Of a DNA stretch of 64,000 nt, positions 2,466 to 15,684 are shown one piece after another. Position numbers and translations under genes: made by a program. The notes beneath the pieces are model-generated. The model had not been told where the DNA came from, did no database searches, and saw nothing but the letters and a program-made list of their open reading frames with translations. Within the stretch, counting starts at the first letter, position 1. Every line of letters begins with the position of its first letter. This DNA comes from Gemmatimonadaceae bacterium (GTDB taxonomy: Bacteria > Gemmatimonadota > Gemmatimonadetes > Gemmatimonadales > Gemmatimonadaceae): positions 1-64,000 of the forward strand of contig DATLTC010000096.1 in the NCBI GenBank assembly GCA_035533755.1, given 5' to 3'.

Positions 2466-3622
2466 GCCTGGCCCGGGCGCTCATCCGCACGGATTCGCGC
2501 AATCCGTCGCTCGTGCCCGGCGGCCCGGGCGAAGGCCACGTGGCCGCCGTGCTCCGCGGCGTGCTCGACGCGTGGGGATTCCGCGTGGAGCTGCAGGAGG
2601 TGGCGCCGGGCCGCCCCAACGTGGTGGCGCGGATCGGCACGCCCGGCCCGCACGCGCTGATGTTCAACGGCCACCTCGACGTCGTGGGCGTGGACGGGAT
2701 GACGCATGCCCCGTTCGCCGCCGACGAGCGCGACGGTCGCCTGTACGGACGCGGGTCGTCGGACATGAAGGCGGGCGTGGCGGCGATGTGCGCGGCCGCC
2801 GCCCTCGCCGCCGACGGCCTCACGCACGGCGAGGTGGTCGTGGCCGGCGTGGTGGACGAGGAGTTCGAGAGCCGCGGCACACGCGCCCTCGTGGCCGCCG
2901 GCATCCGGGCCGATGCCGCCGTCGTGACCGAGCCCACGGGACTGGCCATCATGCCCGCGCACCGCGGCTTCGTGTGGGTGGACCTCGTCTTCCACGGCCG
3001 CGCCGCGCACGGCAGCCGGTGGGACCTCGGCGTGGATGCCATCCGCCACGCCGGTCTGGTGCTCGCCGAGCTGGATGCGTTCGACGCCGACGAGTTGCCG
3101 CGGCGTTCCCATCCGCTGCTGGGCCATCCGTCGGTCCACGCCTCGCTCATCGCCGGCGGCTCGGGCATGTCCACGTATCCCGACCGGTGCGAACTCAAGA
3201 TCGAGCGGCGCACGATTCCGGGCGAGACGCCGGCCCAGGTGATGGCCGAAGTGGAAGCCATCTGCGCCAGGGTGCGGGCCCGGCGGCCCGCGTTGCGCGT
3301 GGATGCGCGCCTGTCGCTGGCGCAGAGTCCGAGCGACGTGCCCACCGACGCGCCGATCGTGCGCGCCCTGCGGGATGCGCTGGAGCATCAGGCCATCGAC
3401 GTCCGCACCGAGGGCATGAGCGCGTGGACCGACTGCGCCGTGCTCAACGAGGCCGGCATCCCGGCCGTCTGCTTCGGGCCCGGCGACATGTCGCTCGCCC
3501 ACGCCCATGAGGAATACGTGGAGACGGAACAGATCCGGCGCGCCGCCGCCGTCCTCGAACGGCTGGCGCGCGGGTGGTGCGGCGGCGCGACCAACGGAGT
3601 GGAAGCGCCATGGCGCAACTGA
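2438..3622 (+). CDS. M20 family metallopeptidase (ArgE/DapE/carboxypeptidase type)
   Basis: 394 residues. The zinc-binding residues of the family are visible: H79 and D81 in NGHLDVVG, the bridging D109 in GRGSSDMKAG, the general-base pair E141-E142 in VVDEEFES, E165 in TEPTG, and a late histidine in SLAHAHEEYVE. A dimerisation domain (about 175-285) starts with AHRGFVWVDLVFHGRAAHGS. The family removes acyl or amino-acid groups, as in ArgE, DapE and peptidase T-like enzymes; the exact substrate cannot be read from the sequence. It is translationally coupled with the kinase upstream (28-base overlap), and its end overlaps the start of the next small gene by 13 bases. Confidence 0.85.
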   Translation: MRLERGDAVGLARALIRTDSRNPSLVPGGPGEGHVAAVLRGVLDAWGFRVELQEVAPGRPNVVARIGTPGPHALMFNGHLDVVGVDGMTHAPFAADERDGRLYGRGSSDMKAGVAAMCAAAALAADGLTHGEVVVAGVVDEEFESRGTRALVAAGIRADAAVVTEPTGLAIMPAHRGFVWVDLVFHGRAAHGSRWDLGVDAIRHAGLVLAELDAFDADELPRRSHPLLGHPSVHASLIAGGSGMSTYPDRCELKIERRTIPGETPAQVMAEVEAICARVRARRPALRVDARLSLAQSPSDVPTDAPIVRALRDALEHQAIDVRTEGMSAWTDCAVLNEAGIPAVCFGPGDMSLAHAHEEYVETEQIRRAAAVLERLARGWCGGATNGVEAPWRN

Positions 3623-3828
3623 CCGCCGCCCAGTACGACACGCTCGAGCGGGCCGTGGCGAACTCGCAACGGCTCGTGGTGTACCGCCGGGGTACGGAAT
3701 TCATCGTCGTGCCGGAACGGCTGTGCCTGCACGACCGCCGCGAGGCCATCGAGGCTCGCAACCCCACCACCGGAGACCACCTGACGCTGTTCATCGACGA
3801 GATGGACACCATCGAGGTCGTGCGATGA
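3610..3828 (+). CDS. Small conserved-looking protein of unknown function
   Basis: 72 residues from ATG 3610, inside the last codons of the M20 gene. The sequence alternates strands and short turns (LVVYRRGTEFIVVPERL, then LTLFIDEMDTIEVV) and looks like a small beta-rich domain with no signal or membrane segment. The stop codon overlaps the start of the RNase H-like gene (ATGA at 3825-3828), so the two proteins are made from one message at linked rates. I do not recognise a family. Confidence 0.65.
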   Translation: MAQLTAAQYDTLERAVANSQRLVVYRRGTEFIVVPERLCLHDRREAIEARNPTTGDHLTLFIDEMDTIEVVR

Positions 3829-4466
3829 ACGAGCCCGCTCCCCTGCCCCTGATCGCCATCTATGCCGACGAATCGTGCCTCGGCAACGGGCGCGAGGGAG
3901 ACAACCCGGGAGCCGCCGGGGGCGTGATCGAATTCCGCGGCGCGGAGTCCGGCGCCGTGCAGCGGTGGGACTATTGGCGCTCGGAGCCGGCAACGACCAA
4001 CAATCGCATGGCGCTGCTGAGCGTGATCGAGGCGTTCCAGCTCATCGCGCAGAAGGGGGGCCGGTTCCGCGTCCTGTTCACGAGCGATTCGCAATATCTG
4101 ATCAAGGGCATGAGCGAATGGGTGCCGGGCTGGATGGCGCGCGGTTGGCGCCGCAAGACCGGGCCGATCGAGAATCTGGCCCTGTGGAAGGAGGCCGTGG
4201 AGCGGGTCCGCCCGCACGCGGTCCAGTGGCAATGGGTGCGGGGCCACGACGGCCACGTGCAGAACGAGTACGCCAACCATCTCGCGATCCGGGCAGCAAG
4301 GGAGCAGACGGCTTCGGTGGGCGCCGAGCCGTCCCGGTTCGGCGAATGGCTGGCGGCCGAGCGGGCCGCCCGCCGGATGCACGCCGACCCGGCGCCGTTT
4401 CCCGATCCTCGTAGATTCAAGGCGTCGCGGCCGCTGCCCGTGGCGCAGGCGACGATGCTCGACTAG
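3825..4466 (+). CDS. RNase H type 1-like protein with altered active site
   Basis: 213 residues. The fold is plainly RNase HI: D15 in YADESCLGN (D10 of the E. coli enzyme), TTNNRM at 57-62, D88 in FTSDSQYLIKGM (D70), and WVRGHDGH with H141 (H124). Two of the four metal-binding carboxylates differ. The E48 position is Ala63 (NRMAL instead of NRMEL), and the D134 position is Asn151 (NEYAN instead of NERCD). Loss of E48 severely weakens E. coli RNase HI, while D134N is tolerated there. The protein may therefore bind RNA/DNA hybrids with little cleavage, or use other residues. A C-terminal extension (about 160-213) is Ala/Arg/Pro-rich. It is coupled to the small gene upstream. Confidence 0.85.
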   Translation: MNEPAPLPLIAIYADESCLGNGREGDNPGAAGGVIEFRGAESGAVQRWDYWRSEPATTNNRMALLSVIEAFQLIAQKGGRFRVLFTSDSQYLIKGMSEWVPGWMARGWRRKTGPIENLALWKEAVERVRPHAVQWQWVRGHDGHVQNEYANHLAIRAAREQTASVGAEPSRFGEWLAAERAARRMHADPAPFPDPRRFKASRPLPVAQATMLD

Positions 4467-4477
4467 TGGAGGCCGGG

Positions 4478-5080
4478 ATGGACGCCATCGACCGCATGTT
4501 CACCGTGCTCGCGCAAACGGTGCGCGACACGCAACCGCGATACCTCACGCAGCCGTTCGAGGTGGCGGAGCTGTACCAGACGCTCCTGCCGTATCGCCAC
4601 TTCCGACGGGAGTTGGCGATCGAAACCAACGAGGATTACGAACTCGCGCTGATGCAGCTCCTTTCCGGGGCCCGCGGGTATCTCATCGTGGACGATCGCA
4701 TGCGCGACGCGCTGGCGCGCGAGTTGGCGTCGCCCAACCCCGATCTGGGCGTGTTCCGGCAGTATGCCGACGCCCAGGTGGCGCTCTCGCCGGCCGCGCT
4801 GCAACAGCATGGGCGGGGGGCGGCGGCCGAACCGGCGCCGGCAGGCGGATCGACGGTCCGGCTGTCCACGCCGGCGTCGGTGGCGGCGGCCGCGGCGGCC
4901 GCCGACGAGCTGCGGTGCCGGTACTGCAGCGGGAGACTGCCGCAGGGGCGTCGCGTCGTGTTCTGCCCGCACTGCGGCCAGAACCTCACGGTGATGAATT
5001 GCAGCGCGTGCGGCGCTGAACTGGAGGTGGGATGGAAGTTCTGCGTGGCGTGCGGCCGGTCGTCCGGCCAGAACGCATGA
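4478..5080 (+). CDS. Zinc-ribbon domain protein
   Basis: 200 residues from ATG 4478, chosen because GGAGG lies 5 bases upstream; a GTG at 4466 would add four residues. Residues 1-95 form an acidic, mostly helical domain of unknown family (AELYQTLLPYRHFRRELAIE). A Pro/Ala linker follows. The last 50 residues hold a double zinc ribbon: CRYCSGRLPQGRRVVFCPHC and CSACGAELEVGWKFCVAC, each with two CxxC knuckles. Such C-terminal ribbons usually serve protein-protein or RNA contacts. The stop overlaps the start of the following lipoprotein gene (ATGA). Confidence 0.75.
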   Translation: MDAIDRMFTVLAQTVRDTQPRYLTQPFEVAELYQTLLPYRHFRRELAIETNEDYELALMQLLSGARGYLIVDDRMRDALARELASPNPDLGVFRQYADAQVALSPAALQQHGRGAAAEPAPAGGSTVRLSTPASVAAAAAAADELRCRYCSGRLPQGRRVVFCPHCGQNLTVMNCSACGAELEVGWKFCVACGRSSGQNA

Positions 5081-6168
5081 TGCGGCGCGTCTGGCGGAGC
5101 GGCGCCCTGGTCGCGCTCGCGGCGTGCACGGCATGCGCCACCGGAGCGCGGCGCACGGCCGGCGGGGGCGCCACGCCCGCGGCCGCCCCGGCGCGGGCGT
5201 GGCCCGTGGTCACACGGGAGGACGTGGATCTGTGGCTTCACGGATACGCCATGCTCACGCGCGACGCGGCGCAGGTGCCGGTATTCCGCCGCGGCTATCG
5301 CGACTCGATGACCGTCATCCGGCAACGCGCCAACGTGCTCACCGGCCTCGACGCCAATCATGAACAACTGAGCGCGTTGATGGCGCAGAACCCCGAGATC
5401 TCCAGCGGGCAGTTCGTGCCGTTGTACTTCGATTCGTGGGACCAGGTGGTCCAGGCCACGACCGCCTTCCTCGGCGCCAACGGCGACCCCCGCAGCGCCG
5501 AGCCGTCGCTGCGGGGTCAGGTGGCGCTTCTCGCGTCGATCTTCCCCACCGTGCAGGACCGCAACTGGCTGCGGCTGTTCATGCAGTCGTTGGGCGACGA
5601 ATCGGAGCACTTCTACCACCAGTACTGGATCGCGCAGCAGCGCGCGCGCGGCCCCGTGGCCGGGTCGGTGGACTCGCTCTGGCAATCGCTGCGGCCGCGC
5701 TTCCAGCGCTTTCTCACCAATACGCACCAGCTGGACGGACAGATCGTGCTGTCGCTGGTCCTGGGCGGCGAGGGCCGCACGCTCAACGCGGCGCCCGACC
5801 ACAACGTGATGGTGGTGACGCTGCCCGCATCGCCCGCCACGGTGGCCGAACCCATCTACGTGGTGGCGCACGAGTTGGTGCAGACCATCGCCGCCGCGGC
5901 GATCAACGACAACGCCTCGCCGGCCGAGCAGCGCAACGGGGTGGCGGCCGGATACGCACCCACCGCCGCCGTGCGGGGCGGCGAGATGCTGATCGAGCGC
6001 GTGGCGCCCGAACTGGGCGACGGCTTCATGCGCTTCTATCTGAGCCAGGCCGGCGTGACGCCCCCGGCCACCGGCGTGCAGGCCGTGTTCACCAGCACGT
6101 TCCCGCTCCCCACGGCCATCGTCGCCGACCTGGCCCGCCAGATCAACCAGGCACTCGGCGGAAGCTGA
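5077..6168 (+). CDS. Putative lipoprotein of unknown function
   Basis: 363 residues from ATG 5077, overlapping the stop of the zinc-ribbon gene. The N-terminus has two arginines, a hydrophobic stretch and a lipobox ending LAAC, so it is probably lipid-anchored at the periplasmic face. The rest is soluble and helix-rich, with no recognised family. Near residue 264 is VVAHELVQTI, which resembles the first half of a gluzincin motif but lacks the second histidine, so I do not call it a peptidase. Trp/Tyr-rich segments (NWLRLFMQSLGDESEHFYHQ) suggest a substrate or protein interface. A short gap separates it from the next gene on the same strand. Confidence 0.65.
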   Translation: MMRRVWRSGALVALAACTACATGARRTAGGGATPAAAPARAWPVVTREDVDLWLHGYAMLTRDAAQVPVFRRGYRDSMTVIRQRANVLTGLDANHEQLSALMAQNPEISSGQFVPLYFDSWDQVVQATTAFLGANGDPRSAEPSLRGQVALLASIFPTVQDRNWLRLFMQSLGDESEHFYHQYWIAQQRARGPVAGSVDSLWQSLRPRFQRFLTNTHQLDGQIVLSLVLGGEGRTLNAAPDHNVMVVTLPASPATVAEPIYVVAHELVQTIAAAAINDNASPAEQRNGVAAGYAPTAAVRGGEMLIERVAPELGDGFMRFYLSQAGVTPPATGVQAVFTSTFPLPTAIVADLARQINQALGGS

Positions 6169-6196
6169 CCCGGCCTTCGCGCCGTATATTGAGATC

Positions 6197-7009
6197 ATGG
6201 CCGACCCGCAGGTTCCCGTCCCGCGAACCCCGCTCGATCGCGCCGCGCTGGAACGTGTGCTGGCGCGCGCCGCCGAGTTGCAGGCGCGCACCGGCGACTC
6301 CGCAGATATGATGACCGACGATCAGATCCTCGATCTCGGCAAGGAGGTGGGCCTGTCGCCGCTGCACCTGCGGCAGGCGCTGGCCGAGGAGCGCGCCGGC
6401 CGCGATCGCGAACACCGACCCGGCCGGTTCATCGGCCCGTCGCTGGTCAGCGCGGAGCGCACCGTTCGCGGAACCGCCGCCGACGTCTTCTCGGCGCTCG
6501 ATGTGTGGCTGCAGAAAGACGAGTGGCTGCAGATCAAGCGCCAGTTTCCGGACCGCATCGTCTGGGAACCCCGCCGCGATCTGGAAGGCGGCATCCGCCG
6601 CATGCTCAACGTGGGCGGGCGCGGGTATGCGTTGTCCAAGGCGAGTGACGTGGGCGCCACGGTGGTGCCCGTGGATGACGGCCGGCTGCTGGTGCGGTTG
6701 GACGCCGACCTGAGTTCCCACCTCCGCGCCGCCACCGGCCGGATGATCGGGGTGGCCACGATCGGCGCGGCGGCCAGCGGCGCCGCGCTCCTGCTGCACT
6801 TTGCTGCGCTCGTGGCCGTGGCGCCCGTGGTGGCCCTGGGGGCACTCGGATTCTTCGGCGCCCGGGAGCTGCACGCCAACGCGGTGAACCGGGCCCAGCT
6901 CACCCTGGAGCAGCTACTCGACCGGCTGGAGCGCGGCGAGCGCGCCGAGAATCCGTCGCTGCTCAAGCTCCTCGCATCGGCGGCGGGCGCCGTTCCGCGG
7001 CGCTACTGA
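6197..7009 (+). CDS. Membrane-associated protein of unknown function
   Basis: 270 residues. Residues 1-75 are helical and acidic, with a segment MTDDQILDLGKEVGLSPLHL that looks like a small helical regulatory domain. The middle part (about 90-190) is a mixed alpha/beta region. Residues 182-225 hold two hydrophobic helices separated by a short turn, consistent with a hairpin in the inner membrane. The C-terminus is a charged helix (LTLEQLLDRLERGER). I know no named family. The gene ends 7 bases inside the end of the convergent squalene-synthase-like gene. Confidence 0.65.
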   Translation: MADPQVPVPRTPLDRAALERVLARAAELQARTGDSADMMTDDQILDLGKEVGLSPLHLRQALAEERAGRDREHRPGRFIGPSLVSAERTVRGTAADVFSALDVWLQKDEWLQIKRQFPDRIVWEPRRDLEGGIRRMLNVGGRGYALSKASDVGATVVPVDDGRLLVRLDADLSSHLRAATGRMIGVATIGAAASGAALLLHFAALVAVAPVVALGALGFFGARELHANAVNRAQLTLEQLLDRLERGERAENPSLLKLLASAAGAVPRRY

Positions 7010-8112
7010 CGTCCGCCCCATCGGGGCACGAGCCTCACCGGCCGGCGCCGGGCGCGTTCGGCCAGCCCGTTGAGCACCCGATTGCTCAGGATCCCGATCA
7101 CGCTCAGCGCGATGAGCGACTTCACCTCGGCGCGCGAGATCTTCACCACCTCGCGTCGCGCCAGTGCCGTCGGCGACCGCGTGAGGTCGCGGAGCGTGGC
7201 GTAGGCGAACAGAAGTGGCAGCGCGCAGAACAGCCGGACAGCCACGGCACGCCGCGGGACGAGCAGCAGATAGTCCTTGGCATGCTCCAAGTCCTCCCAC
7301 GCCATCTCGATCAGCGACGTGAGGGCGGCCTGCGTGCCTTCCACCCGCTCGCCGGCCAGGATCGCGGCGTGGCTGCTGCCATACTCGGCCAGCAGTTGCT
7401 CGGGGATGTAGATCGAGTTCTCGTGCGCCGCGTCCGGGGCCACGTCCTTGAGGATGTTGACCGTCTGCAGGGCCTCGGCAAACGACCGGCTGCGCTCGCG
7501 GAGCGCGGCGTACTCGCGCTGGCCGATGCTCGGGGTGTGCTCGTGCCAGAGGTCGGTGAGCAGGTAGCCCACCGTGCCGGCCACGTAGTAGCAGTACTCG
7601 CGGTACTCGTCCAGAGTCTGGATGCGGATGCCGTGCGGGTACCGCAGCACGAACTTGCGCATGCCCACCGCCATCTCGGTGACCCACCGCTGCACGTGGG
7701 CGCGGGTGGCCGGCGGGAGTTGCCGGAACACCACGAACACCAGATCGGCGTGATGTACGAGGCGCAGGTGGGCGGGCTCGCCCGCCATCCGCTCGATCAG
7801 GGCCGGGAACCCGTCGGCCAGGGCCGGGTCGTCGAAACACGCGAGGAAGCGGTCGAACAGCGCCGCCTTCTCGGCCGCCGGGAGCACCGGCTCGTCCTCG
7901 ATGGTATCGGCGATCCGGCAGAGCAGGTACGCGCAGTTCACCGCCTGCCCCAGCACGCCCGGCAGCACCCGGATGCTGAGGGCGAACGTCCGGGACACGG
8001 CCGGCAGGATATCGTGCGAGAAGCGGCGCGCGCTCTCGAGGCGAGGATCGGGCGGCGACACGGGGACCTGCGGGGTCGTCGTGAGCGGAGTGGTTTCGTT
8101 AAACTTCTGCAT
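7003..8112 (-). CDS. Squalene/phytoene synthase family protein
   Basis: 369 residues. Both Asp-rich prenyl-diphosphate sites are present: DTIED at residues 69-73 and NILKDVAPD with D222 and D226. Other family marks are SRTFALSIRVLP near residue 40, YCYYVAGTVGYLL near 172-184 and NSIYIP near 231. This arrangement fits head-to-head condensation of two farnesyl diphosphates to squalene or dehydrosqualene. A hydrophobic segment near residue 335 may sit at the membrane, as in eukaryotic-type squalene synthases. No hopene cyclase, desaturase or HpnC/D/E partner lies in the window, so the end product is unknown. It faces away from the FAD dehydrogenase across an 80-base gap that must contain both promoters. 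Confidence 0.88.
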   Translation of the reverse strand: MQKFNETTPLTTTPQVPVSPPDPRLESARRFSHDILPAVSRTFALSIRVLPGVLGQAVNCAYLLCRIADTIEDEPVLPAAEKAALFDRFLACFDDPALADGFPALIERMAGEPAHLRLVHHADLVFVVFRQLPPATRAHVQRWVTEMAVGMRKFVLRYPHGIRIQTLDEYREYCYYVAGTVGYLLTDLWHEHTPSIGQREYAALRERSRSFAEALQTVNILKDVAPDAAHENSIYIPEQLLAEYGSSHAAILAGERVEGTQAALTSLIEMAWEDLEHAKDYLLLVPRRAVAVRLFCALPLLFAYATLRDLTRSPTALARREVVKISRAEVKSLIALSVIGILSNRVLNGLAERARRRPVRLVPRWGGRQ

Positions 8113-10828: not shown

Positions 10829-12049
10829 ATGACGCGCATCGGTTTCGCGTACAATCAAAAGCCAGAGTCGACTCCCGCGTCGCATGCTGCATCCGACGCG
10901 GTCGACGCCGACGACGAGCCGCCCAGTACGCGCCGGGACGAAAGCGCCCGGACCTTCTACTCTGTCCCGTCCACTCCATTCGCCACGGCAGGCGGTGGCA
11001 CGGGACTCGTCGTCCCCGCCTCTCCCGCGCCGGCCGTCACCGACGACGTGTTCGCGGAATGGGACTCCGCCGAGACGATCGACGCCGTGGCCCACGCCCT
11101 CTCGGCGATGGGCGAGGTGATCCGGCTCGAGGCGACCCCCGACTTCCCCGAGCGGCTGCGCGACGCCAGGCCGGACATCGTGTTCAACATCGCCGAGGGG
11201 CTGGCCGGCCCCAACCGCGAGTCGCACGTGCCGGCGATCTGCGAGTTCTTCGGGATTCCCTATTCGGGGAGCGACCCGTTCACCCTCGCGCTCTGCCTGC
11301 ACAAGGCCCGCACCAAGCAGATGCTGGCCGCGCACGGCATTCCCACGGCCGGCTTCGCGCTCGTGGAGACCGATGCCGAGCTCGAGGCTCTGGCCGCCGG
11401 CCGCCATCCGCGGTTTCCCGGCTCGCCGTCGCGGTTCCCGCTGTTCCTCAAGCCCGTCCAGGAAGGCTCGTCCAAGGGAATCACGGAGCGGAATCTCGTG
11501 CGCGGCCCCGACGAGCTCCTGATGCGCGGACGCGAACTGCTCCGGGACTACGACCAGCCGGTGCTGGTGGAGGAGTATCTGCCGGGCGCCGAATTCACGT
11601 GCGGGGTGCTCGGCAACGGCGGCGCCGCGCGGGTACTCCCGATCGTGGCGCTGCGGTTCGACACGCTCCCTGACGGCGCCGTGCCGATCTACGGGTTCGA
11701 AGCCAAGTGGGTCTGGGACACGCGCGACCATCCGCTCGAGATCTTCGAATGCCCGGCGCGTATCGCGCCCGAGCTTCGTTCGGCCATCGAGGCGGTCACG
11801 CTGGGGGCGTACCGTGCCCTGGGCTGCCGTGACTGGTCGCGGATCGACGTCCGGTTGGACGCCGCCGGCGCCCCCCACGTGATCGAAGTCAATCCGCTGC
11901 CCGGGATCCTGCCGGATCCGGCCGACCACTCCTGCCTGCCCAAGGCCGCGCGCGCGGCGGGGCTGTCGTACGACAGGCTGATCCAGGCTTGTCTCATCCA
12001 CGCCGCAGAGCGCCAGGGCGTTGCACTCGAGCGCGGGAGCATACCGTGA
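10829..12049 (+). CDS. ATP-grasp ligase, D-alanine-D-alanine ligase-like (first of pair)
   Basis: 406 residues. The Ddl-like core is clear: FNIAEGLAGPNRESHVPA at about 116-133, FGIPYSGSDPFTLALCLHK at about 138-156, an ATP-lysine in FPLFLKPVQEGSSKGI near 210, VLVEEYLPGAEFT near 246, and metal ligands in WSRIDVRLDAAGAPHVIEVNPLPG near 336-359. Residues 12-70 are a low-complexity Ala/Ser/Pro/Asp-rich insertion missing from Ddl. The family joins a carboxylate to an amine through an acyl-phosphate. Real Ddl is normally near cell-division genes; here the neighbours are another ATP-grasp, a GNAT and lysine aminomutase, so a different peptide bond is likely. Its stop overlaps the GTG of the next gene (GTGA at 12046-12049). 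Confidence 0.85.
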   Translation: MTRIGFAYNQKPESTPASHAASDAVDADDEPPSTRRDESARTFYSVPSTPFATAGGGTGLVVPASPAPAVTDDVFAEWDSAETIDAVAHALSAMGEVIRLEATPDFPERLRDARPDIVFNIAEGLAGPNRESHVPAICEFFGIPYSGSDPFTLALCLHKARTKQMLAAHGIPTAGFALVETDAELEALAAGRHPRFPGSPSRFPLFLKPVQEGSSKGITERNLVRGPDELLMRGRELLRDYDQPVLVEEYLPGAEFTCGVLGNGGAARVLPIVALRFDTLPDGAVPIYGFEAKWVWDTRDHPLEIFECPARIAPELRSAIEAVTLGAYRALGCRDWSRIDVRLDAAGAPHVIEVNPLPGILPDPADHSCLPKAARAAGLSYDRLIQACLIHAAERQGVALERGSIP

Positions 12050-13113
12050 GAATCGCCATCCTGTTCGATGGAGCATCGGCCATCGCCGCCTTCCCCGACC
12101 TGCAGATCCTGGCAACGGTCGAGGCCATCGAGCACGCGCTCGTGACCGAGGGGAACACCGTGACGCGGCTGCCGGTGCACCCCGACGGCCGCTGGATCGA
12201 GCGCCTGCGCAAGGGCCGGTTCGAGCTCGTCTTCAACATGTGCGAGGGGATCGACGGCATCGCCGCGCTGGAGCCCCCCGTGATCGCCGTGCTCGAACTG
12301 CTGGCCATTCCGTATACCGGCAGCTCCAGCTACACCACGGCGCTCTGCCTGCGCAAGCACGTGGTGAACGCCCTGCTCGCCAACGCCGGCCTCCCGGTGC
12401 CCCGGTTCGCCACCTTCCGCAGCGGAGACCCGGTGCAGTCGATCGGCTATCCGGCCATCTGCAAGCCGACCGCCGAGGACGCATCCATCGGCATCGAGCA
12501 GAAATCCGTGGTCCGGACCAAGCGCGCGCTGGCCCAACGGCTGGAAGCGATGCTCGAACGCTGGAATCAGGTATTGGTGCAGCGGTACGTGGACGGCCGC
12601 GAGGTGAACGTCGGGATCGTGGGCGACACGGTGCTCCCCGTGGCCGAGATCGACTTCGAACAGATGCCCGAGGGCCTGTGGCGCATCGTGAGTTATCGGT
12701 CCAAGTGGGAGACGGGGAGTGAAGAAGACCTCGGCACGGCGCCACGGTGCCCGGCCGATCTCTCGCCGGAGTTGGAGGCCGAGGTGCGCCGCATCGCGCT
12801 GGAGGCGTGGCGGCTGGTGGGCGGCTACGGCTACGGGCGGGTGGACATGCGCATCGACGCCGACGGCCGGCCCTGGATCCTGGAAGTCAACGCGAATCCG
12901 GACATCGCGCCGGACGCCGGCCTCGCCCGCATGGCCAAAGTGGCGGGCATCAGCTACGCGAAGCTCATCCGCACCGTGTGCCAGCTGGGATTGCACCATC
13001 GCATCGATGTCGGCGAGGCCGACCGGCTGTGGGCGCTGGCGTTCCAGCTCTCGGGGGGCGTGGATCCCACGCTCGAGACCGATCTGTTCGACGGCGCGCG
13101 CCAGGCCTCGTGA
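12046..13113 (+). CDS. ATP-grasp ligase, D-alanine-D-alanine ligase-like (second of pair)
   Basis: 355 residues from GTG 12046, in GTGA overlap with the first ligase. It keeps the same framework: FNMCEGIDGIAALEPPVIA near residues 63-81, IPYTGSSSYTTALCLRKH near 88-105, YPAICKPTAEDASIGI near 139-154, VLVQRYVDGREVN near 180-192, and YGRVDMRIDADGRPWILEVN near 262-281. It shares this framework with its neighbour but is shorter and lacks the low-complexity insertion. Two different ligases in tandem usually mean two successive amide bonds, or one ligase per substrate order. The stop overlaps the ATG of the GNAT gene by one base. Confidence 0.85.
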   Translation: MRIAILFDGASAIAAFPDLQILATVEAIEHALVTEGNTVTRLPVHPDGRWIERLRKGRFELVFNMCEGIDGIAALEPPVIAVLELLAIPYTGSSSYTTALCLRKHVVNALLANAGLPVPRFATFRSGDPVQSIGYPAICKPTAEDASIGIEQKSVVRTKRALAQRLEAMLERWNQVLVQRYVDGREVNVGIVGDTVLPVAEIDFEQMPEGLWRIVSYRSKWETGSEEDLGTAPRCPADLSPELEAEVRRIALEAWRLVGGYGYGRVDMRIDADGRPWILEVNANPDIAPDAGLARMAKVAGISYAKLIRTVCQLGLHHRIDVGEADRLWALAFQLSGGVDPTLETDLFDGARQAS

Positions 13114-13625
13114 TGATCACCATCGGTGCCATGGACGCGTCGCAACGCGCGGCGCTGCGCGACCTGCTTCACGCCACGGGGTCGTTCCGTCCGGACGAGA
13201 TCGGCGTGGCGCTCGAACTGTTCGACGAGGCGTTCGGACCGCCGGCACCGAGCGCGGATTACGAGTTCGTGGCGGCGCTCGATGCGGCGGGACGCCTCGC
13301 GGGATACTGCTGCTACGGCCCAACGCCGGGAACCAACGGGACGTACGACGTCTATTGGATTGCGGTGCACCCGTCGCATCAGGGGGCGGGAGTGGGATCG
13401 GCGCTGCTCGCCGAGGTGGAGCGTCGGCTCCGGGACCGTGGAGCGCGGCTGGTGGTGGTGGAGACGTCGGCCCGCGAGGGCTACGACTCGGCACGGCGGT
13501 TCTACGGAGCGCGCGGCTACCGCGCGGCGGCACGCCTCCGCGATTTCTACGCCCCGGCGGACGACCGGGTGGTATTCACGAGGCAGCTCGGCAGTTCCCC
13601 CTTACCCGCAGATCGCGGAGCCTGA
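13113..13625 (+). CDS. GNAT family N-acetyltransferase
   Basis: 170 residues from ATG 13113, sharing one base with the upstream stop. The acetyl-CoA pyrophosphate loop is HQGAGVGSALL near residues 89-99, preceded by the strand YDVYWIAVHPS. A late ARRFYGARGYR segment is the usual motif B/C. In archaeal and some bacterial osmolyte pathways, a GNAT (AblB) acetylates beta-lysine made by a lysine 2,3-aminomutase; the gene right after this one encodes such a mutase. I infer a beta-lysine or beta-lysyl product as acceptor, but no residue here proves the substrate. Confidence 0.85.
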   Translation: MITIGAMDASQRAALRDLLHATGSFRPDEIGVALELFDEAFGPPAPSADYEFVAALDAAGRLAGYCCYGPTPGTNGTYDVYWIAVHPSHQGAGVGSALLAEVERRLRDRGARLVVVETSAREGYDSARRFYGARGYRAAARLRDFYAPADDRVVFTRQLGSSPLPADRGA

Positions 13626-13630
13626 CGGCC

Positions 13631-14803
13631 ATGAGCGACTGGCAGCAAATCCTCCATACCGGCATCGACACGCTGGACAAGCTGGCCGAGCGGTTCGGAC
13701 CCGACGTCATCGACGTCGAGGCCCTGCAGCCCGCGTTCGAGAATTTCCAGATGCGCCTCACGCCGGCCGTTCTCGCGCAGATCAAGGAAGTGGGAGACCC
13801 GATCTGGAACCAGTACGTCCCCACCATCCAGGAGTTGGACGTGGTGGACGGCGTGATCGACTCGCTGGACGAGGACGGAGATTCGCCGGTGCCGAACATC
13901 ACGCATCGGTATCCCGACCGCGTCCTCTTCCTGGTGAGCCCGGTGTGCGCGTCGTACTGCCGGTTCTGCACCCGCCGCCGGAAGGTGGGAGACCCGGAGA
14001 AGATCCCGCTCAACCAGTATGAATCGGCATTCGAGTACATCCGGAGCCACCCGGAAATCCGCGACGTGATCATGAGCGGCGGCGATCCGATGATGCTCTC
14101 GGACCGCCGGCTGGAATATCTATTCCAGCGGCTGCGTGAGATCCCGCACGTCGAGATCATCCGCATCGGCAGTCGGATCACCTCGCATCTGCCGGAGCGG
14201 ATCACCCCGGAGTTCTGCGAGATGGTCAAGAAGTACCATCCCGTGTACATGAACACGCACTTCAACCATCCCAGCGAGCTCACGCCGGCCACCGTGGCGG
14301 CGCTGGGGCGCCTGGCCGACGCCGGCGTGCCGCTGGGCTGCCAGACCGTGCTCCTCCGCGGGGTGAACGACAACGCGGAGACGATGAAGGAGCTGATGCA
14401 GAAGCTCCTCAAGGCGCGGGTGCGCCCGTACTATCTGTACATGGCCGACCAGGTGGCGGGCGGCGAGCATTTCCGCACCATGGTGGAGACCGGCCTCGAG
14501 ATCGTGAAGGCGCTCCGCGGCTGGACGTCGGGGCTGGCCGTACCCCACTTCTGCATCGACGCACCCGGCGGCGGGGGGAAGGTGCCGCTGCTGCCCGAGT
14601 ACGTGGAGAAGATCACCGACGAAGAAGTGATCTTCCGCAACTACGAGGGCAAGCGCTTCACCTACAAGCAGCCGCGCCAGCCGGTGACGGCCAGCGCATG
14701 CGGCGCGGCCGCGGAGCAGGAACCCGGCGTGCTACCCATCCAGAGCGGCGCGCGGCCGAAGAAGGCGGCGCGGCCCAAGCGCCGGCGCAGCGCGGGCTCG
14801 TAA
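13631..14803 (+). CDS. kamA: Lysine 2,3-aminomutase (KamA-type radical SAM enzyme)
   Basis: 390 residues from ATG 13631, five bases after the GNAT stop. The radical SAM cluster ligands are C106, C110 and C113 (CASYCRFC). PLP binds K317 in DAPGGGGK. From family knowledge, two aspartates of the Clostridium enzyme (D293, D330) hold the lysine epsilon-amino group; D273 and D310 here have the same 37-residue spacing and the same distance to the PLP lysine. This supports lysine rather than glutamate as substrate, giving beta-lysine. The Cys-rich zinc tail of the clostridial enzyme is missing; the C-terminus is instead a Lys/Arg/Ala-rich extension. It is the last gene of the operon, followed by a strong hairpin. 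Confidence 0.9.
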   Translation: MSDWQQILHTGIDTLDKLAERFGPDVIDVEALQPAFENFQMRLTPAVLAQIKEVGDPIWNQYVPTIQELDVVDGVIDSLDEDGDSPVPNITHRYPDRVLFLVSPVCASYCRFCTRRRKVGDPEKIPLNQYESAFEYIRSHPEIRDVIMSGGDPMMLSDRRLEYLFQRLREIPHVEIIRIGSRITSHLPERITPEFCEMVKKYHPVYMNTHFNHPSELTPATVAALGRLADAGVPLGCQTVLLRGVNDNAETMKELMQKLLKARVRPYYLYMADQVAGGEHFRTMVETGLEIVKALRGWTSGLAVPHFCIDAPGGGGKVPLLPEYVEKITDEEVIFRNYEGKRFTYKQPRQPVTASACGAAAEQEPGVLPIQSGARPKKAARPKRRRSAGS

Positions 14804-14860: not shown

Positions 14861-15262
14861 TCAGTGCATCGAGATGACGATGGCGCCGGCGCCATTGCCG
14901 GTGCCGAACCGCTGGGTCGCGTCGGTGGCGTCGAGGTACCGAATTTCACGGATGCCGTCCACCGGCAGCTCGCGCAGGCGACTCAGGCCCACGCTCACAT
15001 TGTCCAGGTACACCTGGATCGTGTACGACTGCTGCTGGGTGATGGACGAGGCCCCCCCGCGCATGATGAGCATCTGCGGCCGGAGCTGCCGGATGGCGTC
15101 GTAGGCGTTGCTGTACGCGCCCTGCGCCAACTCCGCGCTCGTGATCACGTCGGGATTGCGCGGCGCTCGCGTCGCGCCCGACGAGGCGGCGCCGCCGGCA
15201 CTCGCACAGGCACCGGCGGTGAGACCGAGGATCAGGCAGAGCGCCAGGGCTGAAGGACGCAT
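14861..15262 (-). CDS. Small lipoprotein with TonB-receptor plug-like domain (copy 1)
   Basis: 133 residues. The signal peptide ends in a lipobox (LTAGAC), so the protein is likely lipid-anchored. The mature part has the layout of a TonB-dependent receptor plug: ITSAELAQ, a helix YDAIRQLRPQML, the strand YTIQVYLDNV, then IREIRYLDATDATQRFGTGN and a closing GAIVIS strand. No beta-barrel follows; the gene ends after the plug. It lies 17 bases downstream of a paralogue, with the same order of elements. Function is unknown; stand-alone plug domains might dock on a receptor or act as envelope scaffold. Confidence 0.75.
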   Translation of the reverse strand: MRPSALALCLILGLTAGACASAGGAASSGATRAPRNPDVITSAELAQGAYSNAYDAIRQLRPQMLIMRGGASSITQQQSYTIQVYLDNVSVGLSRLRELPVDGIREIRYLDATDATQRFGTGNGAGAIVISMH

Positions 15263-15279
15263 CGTCGCTCCGGGGCCGG

Positions 15280-15684
15280 TCAGTGGGTGATCAGCTGAAT
15301 CACGCCGCCCGGATTGCCCGAGCCGAATCGCTGCATGGCCTGCGATGGACTCAGATAGCGGATCTCCCGGATCAACCCCAGCGGCATGCCGTGCAGCACC
15401 GAGATGTCCCCGATCTTGTTGTCGTCCTGGTACACGTTGAGGGTGTAGCCCGCCGACTGGGTGAGCGACGACGTCTGCTCCGCGGGCCGCACCCGGAGCA
15501 TCTCGGGACGCAGGTGCTGGATGGCTTCGTAGACCGTGGTTGAATTCTCGGCCGCCAGCTCCTGCTGCGTGATCACGTTCCGATCGCGCACGCCGGACGC
15601 CGATCCCGCGCTCGTCCCGGTGGTGGCGCAGGCGGACAGCAACAGTCCGGCGGTCAGTCCCAGCAGTGTTCGTGACTTCAACAT
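15280..15684 (-). CDS. Small lipoprotein with TonB-receptor plug-like domain (copy 2)
   Basis: 134 residues, paralogue of the downstream gene. The lipobox is LLLSAC near residue 19. The domain repeats ITQQELAAEN, VYEAIQHLRPEMLRV, YTLNVYQDDN and IREIRYLSPSQAMQRFGSG, ending GGVIQLITH, which is close to the end of plug domains. A GGAGGAGAT stretch lies just upstream of the ATG at 15684, a strong ribosome site. The pair is probably one transcript and may be cotranscribed with EF-G2 upstream. Confidence 0.75.
   Translation of the reverse strand: MLKSRTLLGLTAGLLLSACATTGTSAGSASGVRDRNVITQQELAAENSTTVYEAIQHLRPEMLRVRPAEQTSSLTQSAGYTLNVYQDDNKIGDISVLHGMPLGLIREIRYLSPSQAMQRFGSGNPGGVIQLITH

Follow-up and report, generated by a model that had tools for sequence, protein, structure and literature searches.

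We analyzed a 64,000-nucleotide window (positions 1 to 64,000 of contig DATLTC010000096.1, GenBank assembly GCA_035533755.1) from a Gemmatimonadaceae bacterium, whose Gemmatimonadota genome (G000) is 3.25 Mb in size and 98% complete. Four adjoining genes on its forward strand are the subject of this work. Two encode Ddl-fold ATP-grasp ligases, A1 (10829 to 12049; 406 amino acids, ATG start) and A2 (12046 to 13113; 355 amino acids, GTG start), both identified by PF07478, TIGR01205, and a structure model. They are followed by a gene for a GNAT acetyltransferase (13113 to 13625; 170 amino acids; PF00583 [Acetyltransf_1], nearest solved relative 2r7h) and by a gene for KamA (13631 to 14803; 390 amino acids), a radical S-adenosylmethionine/pyridoxal-phosphate (PLP) enzyme of the lysine 2,3-aminomutase type (LAM_C, Radical_SAM, TIGR00238, 2a5h). 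The A1 stop and the A2 GTG start share a 4-base overlap (GTGA, 12046 to 12049), base 13113 is common to the TGA stop of A2 and the ATG of GNAT, and a 5-base gap separates the GNAT end (13625) from the KamA start (13631). An earlier reading of this DNA, made without database searches (here, the sequence-only reading), had described these open reading frames, overlaps, and gap correctly to the exact base. Downstream of KamA, on the minus strand (14861 to 15684), lie two similar tandem short lipoprotein-like open reading frames (133 and 134 amino acids).

Systematic locus searches covered the Gemmatimonadota and the Bacteroidota. A close A2 relative occurs in about 50 of 150 sampled Gemmatimonadota genomes, and 24 of the 27 loci read in this phylum (the window included) contain the full four-gene set, always in the same order; the others are incomplete (L047 without KamA, L051 without GNAT, and L062 with only A1 and A2). 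In the Bacteroidota, the phylum of a Bacteroidales record (L008), an A1-like match (E value of 1e-40) was found in 73 of 395 genomes. Sixty loci drawn from these matches were read, and 43 have the full set; adding L008 makes it 44 of 61, of which 42 follow the order of the window and 2 place KamA first. Across both phyla, the window order is kept in 66 of 68 full sets, and near-zero gaps recur. Order and spacing that recur this consistently (24 loci in the Gemmatimonadota, 42 in the Bacteroidota) show that the arrangement is not due to chance, and the conservation of the operon looks vertical. Among 59 genomes of the same family, KamA accompanies the ligase pair in 27, occurs without it in 1 (at a contig edge), and is missing beside the pair in 1, while 30 genomes have neither (Fisher p = 1.6e-14, a guide only, since relatedness is ignored); KamA in this family is essentially confined to the four-gene operon. 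The functional coupling of the four genes proposed in the sequence-only reading is borne out by this deep conservation of set and order, seen when genomes were searched for the set and neighborhoods compared (24 Gemmatimonadota and 44 Bacteroidota loci).

Both ligases match PF07478 (Dala_Dala_lig_C) well (A1, 112 bits; A2, 105 bits; gathering score, 24) and fall below the cutoff of 245.65 bits of the Ddl model TIGR01205 (140 and 132 bits). Their structure models superpose on solved Ddl structures over almost the full length, the best fold match of A1 (pLDDT 84.8) being Pseudomonas aeruginosa DdlB (Z 32.7) and the A2 model (pLDDT 92.4) reaching Z 34.0 to DdlB; residues 21 to 75 of A1 form a low-confidence insert that is probably disordered. 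Residue positions were mapped on E. coli DdlB, with residue roles, and the first residues of the sequence used, that we take to be correct. The ATP-grasp catalytic residues K97, K144, E187, R255, D257, E270, and N272 (DdlB numbering) are kept in both ligases. In the amino acid pocket, H63 is replaced by E and Y216 by W in nearly all A1 and A2 proteins. A1 retains S150, G276, and S281; A2 alters all six tested positions (S150 to A or G, G276 to D, S281 mostly to A, and L282 to G, in addition to H63 and Y216). Neither ligase thus has the pocket of a Ddl, and the changes are fixed and lineage specific. In a phylogenetic tree, A1, A2, and canonical Ddl form three groups, and the A1 lineage (with moderate support, 80/84) and the A2 lineage each span both phyla, indicating that the A1/A2 split predates the divergence of these operons. 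By these measures, A1 and A2 each represent an ancient lineage of their own, with apparently intact ATP-grasp catalysis and altered pockets, and neither is a Ddl; the earlier suspicion that they are not ordinary Ddl enzymes is thereby supported.

Because A1 and A2 share the Ddl fold, it could be argued that they are cell wall D-Ala-D-Ala ligases, with KamA linked incidentally or yielding a modified wall unit, and a canonical Ddl was indeed not found in the assembly of the window, in its relative G129, or in G032. However, an above-cutoff canonical Ddl coexists with the ligase pair in most carriers, including G558 and G570 of the same genus, and both ligases lie far under the Ddl cutoff with changed pocket residues. 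Moreover, mutS (MutS1) and canonical ddl lie near each other in G558 (L145, positions 2719 to 7850), and both are missing from G000 and G129, so that the absence of Ddl is explained by a region missing from the two, through either a common deletion or a common gap in assembly. That A1 or A2 has replaced Ddl in this pair of genomes is conceivable but less likely. In view of the cutoffs, the separate tree lineages, and the coresident canonical Ddl, we rejected a wall Ddl role as quite improbable.

Ligases of this kind were also seen in other settings. A solitary A1 gene, flanked on one side by an rsmB-like gene and on the other by a gene for a small membrane-like protein, with KamA not nearby, occurs at five loci (L115, L117, L118, L126, and L127). 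Several Gemmatimonadota have a third Ddl-like ATP-grasp protein (L146, L148, and L151), which at L146 adjoins a protein weakly matching, just below the cutoff, the putative zinc metallopeptidase family PF15887.

KamA matches Radical_SAM and, over only the first half of the domain, LAM_C, and it passes the general KamA family model TIGR00238 (286.6 bits; cutoff, 199.2). Its sole relative by sequence in the PDB is the Clostridium subterminale lysine 2,3-aminomutase 2a5h (388 bits). C106, C110, and C113 are the cluster cysteines of a CxxxCxxC motif, K317 is the PLP lysine (K337 equivalent), and D273 and D310, spaced 37 residues apart as previously noticed, align with D293 and D330 of 2a5h, the two aspartates that hold the ε-amine of lysine. 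When 72 operon-linked KamA proteins were aligned, the three cysteines and the equivalents of K337 and D330 proved invariant (72/72); at the D293 position, 68 proteins carry Asp and 4 carry Gln (L128, L130, L131, and L187, all loci without the full set). The KamA of every full operon therefore has the functional residues of a lysine 2,3-aminomutase (CxxxCxxC, PLP lysine, and both Asp residues), which strongly suggests a mutase step from lysine to β-lysine, the product predicted for KamA in the sequence-only reading. The KamA proteins of common-order full sets form one clade (support 100/99), while in the two KamA-first operons the ligase/GNAT set is the same but KamA comes from another lineage; the supply of β-lysine thus looks like the required function. 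Operon structure, conservation, mutase-type active site, ligase catalytic residues, and altered pockets are all features read from the sequence itself.

β-Lysine might also be destined for the modification of elongation factor P (EF-P), given that EpmB is related to KamA. However, KamA reaches only 230 bits on the EpmB model TIGR03821 (cutoff, 369.3), and the search with the EpmA model found no EpmA above the cutoff in the genome of the window: the best match (249 bits; cutoff, 286.9) is an ordinary, full-length lysyl-tRNA synthetase encoded beside prfB. With EpmA absent from the genome, EF-P β-lysylation was rejected and is very improbable.

The best solved relative of the GNAT, 2r7h (121 bits), carries no annotation beyond “putative D-alanine N-acetyltransferase.” The GNAT gave no match at an E value of 0.001 to the AblB model TIGR03827 (cutoff, 205.1), on which a control, Cytobacillus AblB, scores 285.6 bits, and it aligns with AblB by BLASTP at 18.9 bits. 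On these scores it is not an AblB, and the set differs from AblA/AblB, as the sequence-only reading had it. This bears on the possibility that KamA and GNAT make only N-acetyl-β-lysine in the manner of AblA/AblB, with the ligases serving another reaction. The A1-KamA pairs that lack GNAT (L113, L128, and L187) also speak against it, since they suggest that the ligase is a closer partner of KamA than GNAT is. None of the 59 family genomes has a protein above the cutoff of the AblA model TIGR03820, on which a true AblA scores 636.5 bits. Because KamA falls below this cutoff and GNAT does not match TIGR03827, membership in AblA/AblB was rejected, and we consider a pathway ending at N-acetyl-β-lysine unlikely.

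The operon is flanked by housekeeping-type genes, such as recG, gpsA, plsY, and thyX. Of 43 Bacteroidota loci, 34 have a RecG-like gene upstream (flanking genes were named by sequence reading). No further pathway gene recurs in the flanks of these 43 loci, nor does a transporter, nonribosomal peptide synthetase, resistance gene, or regulator recur beside the four genes. With such housekeeping-type flanks, the four genes seem sufficient. The lack of recurring partners, together with the seemingly vertical conservation, argues against an exported antibiotic- or siderophore-like β-lysyl compound. Such a compound is brought to mind by a plasmid of Thioflavicoccus mobilis, on which a group of genes including KamA and a Ddl-like ligase resembles a natural-product cluster; nonetheless, we regard it as an unlikely product. 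The canonical Ddl in most carriers and the absence of recurring flanking transporters and resistance genes weaken the wall and antibiotic options alike.

Plasmid searches with A1, KamA, and GNAT returned only partial or single-gene relatives. The T. mobilis group (L070, 3557 to 9038) unites KamA, the Ddl-like ligase, SbnA, an ornithine cyclodeaminase-like protein, and a diaminobutyrate aminotransferase, and looks like a diamino-acid peptide cluster. On a Rhizobium plasmid (L072, 3491 to 6095), KamA adjoins an ATP-grasp protein of the L-amino-acid-ligase type; the D330 position of this mutase is apparently Cys, and its substrate is probably not lysine. Neither was accepted as the same system, as the arrangements differ.

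The set supplies one β-lysine-forming enzyme, one acetyltransferase, and a pair of amide ligases, and no additional partner is constant; the simplest pathway would thus run from lysine through β-lysine to an acetylated, ligated product. In our model, the four genes would constitute one self-contained cytosolic biosynthetic operon. KamA would shift the α-amino group of L-lysine to the β carbon, yielding β-lysine; GNAT would acetylate an amino group, most likely the ε-amine, thereby masking it; and A1 and then A2 would each form an acyl phosphate followed by one amide bond. The end product would be a small N-acetylated β-lysine amide or short peptide, most likely acting as an intracellular solute or stress metabolite. 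The ε-amine is possibly acetyl-blocked before ligation: a GNAT blocking the ε-amine of lysine ahead of amide formation has been proposed for other lysine-based systems (PMC2922099), and N-ε-acetyl-β-lysine is a known solute (PMC1224877). The substrates of the ligases and GNAT, the order of steps, the site of acetylation, the product, and its role (perhaps that of a solute) are what we infer in this model. We lean, with modest confidence, toward this model, in which a self-contained cytosolic pathway would yield an N-acetylated β-lysine amide or short peptide, most likely a solute or stress metabolite. We are more doubtful of, and offer only tentatively, a narrower version, namely, that two dedicated Ddl-derived ligases make an N-acetylated β-lysine di- or tripeptide of an undescribed class, which would serve many Gemmatimonadota and Bacteroidota as a common solute or stress compound inside the cell.

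Several observations weigh against this model. (i) KamA scores below the curated AblA cutoff (436 versus 525.4 bits), so its substrate might differ from lysine. (ii) Some genomes carry A1 alone, or A1 and KamA without A2 or GNAT, and some loci lack a single gene (KamA in L047 and GNAT in L051). (iii) No salt regulation or link to solutes was seen. (iv) Deacetylase (PF00850) and S58 peptidase (PF03576) genes are near-universal in the Gemmatimonadota family. The last point concerns two variant loci. At L114 (7555 to 9294), a GNAT-deacetylase-family fusion is inserted between A2 and GNAT of a full operon; at L132 (7906 to 11063), an A1-like ligase is fused to an S58 peptidase, uniting a ligase and a possible hydrolase within one chain, and is followed by a histone-deacetylase-family protein. 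The S58 family includes β-aminopeptidases, and such a partner would fit the cleavage of an N-terminal β-aminoacyl bond; both variants would fit an acetylated, ligated β-lysine product, although all this is only suggestive. Since these genes are near-universal, the two contexts are anecdotal, and the enzymes were rejected as missing pathway partners, their co-occurrence being uninformative. The same variants have a bearing on whether the product is a lysine-derived storage or nitrogen-reserve dipeptide instead of an osmolyte: the possible breakdown enzymes and the small, self-contained pathway would suit a reserve, but the enzymes are not specifically associated with the operon, and we think this role improbable.

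The four-gene set is undescribed in the open-access literature searched, in which no aminomutase is named alongside ATP-grasp ligases arranged in this way; subscription papers, including a 2009 survey of ATP-grasp amidoligases that may already list such a neighborhood, were outside this scope. The statement in the sequence-only reading that no such pathway has been described thus holds for the open-access papers covered and reaches no further. Soils are rich in Gemmatimonadota, of which few have been cultured. That two phyla have conserved a four-gene pathway to which no product is assigned points to an overlooked common metabolite. If our model is correct, it would extend β-amino-acid solutes past N-acetyl-β-lysine and show that relatives of D-Ala-D-Ala ligase were recruited for β-amino-acid ligation; with four small soluble enzymes, the pathway is testable in one pot.

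Compared with known systems, the four-gene set is an extension of ATP-grasp peptide and β-lysine solute pathways and not categorically new. Like the AblA/AblB operon, it couples a lysine 2,3-aminomutase-type enzyme to a GNAT, but its GNAT is related to AblB by fold only, its KamA is under the AblA cutoff with half of LAM_C matched, and two ATP-grasp ligases are added. With Ddl and Van ligases, A1 and A2 have in common the fold and the ATP-grasp catalytic residues; they differ in their own lineages, changed amino acid pocket, sub-cutoff scores, and linkage to KamA and GNAT. EpmB/EpmA likewise involves a KamA-family enzyme making β-lysine, as is predicted for KamA here, whereas the four-gene set lacks EpmA and its KamA is not EpmB. 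The genes for N-acetylglutaminylglutamine amide (NAGGN) include GNAT and ATP-grasp activities. NAGGN is an acetylated, charge-masked dipeptide solute (PMC1224877), and the product proposed here, predicted from genes alone, would also be an acetylated peptide solute; the NAGGN pathway, however, has no aminomutase, another substrate, and other ligase families. Operons for nonribosomal peptide synthesis by ATP-grasp ligases, as treated in the work of Iyer and Aravind (PMC2922099), resemble the set in combining one or two such ligases with amino-acid-modifying enzymes.
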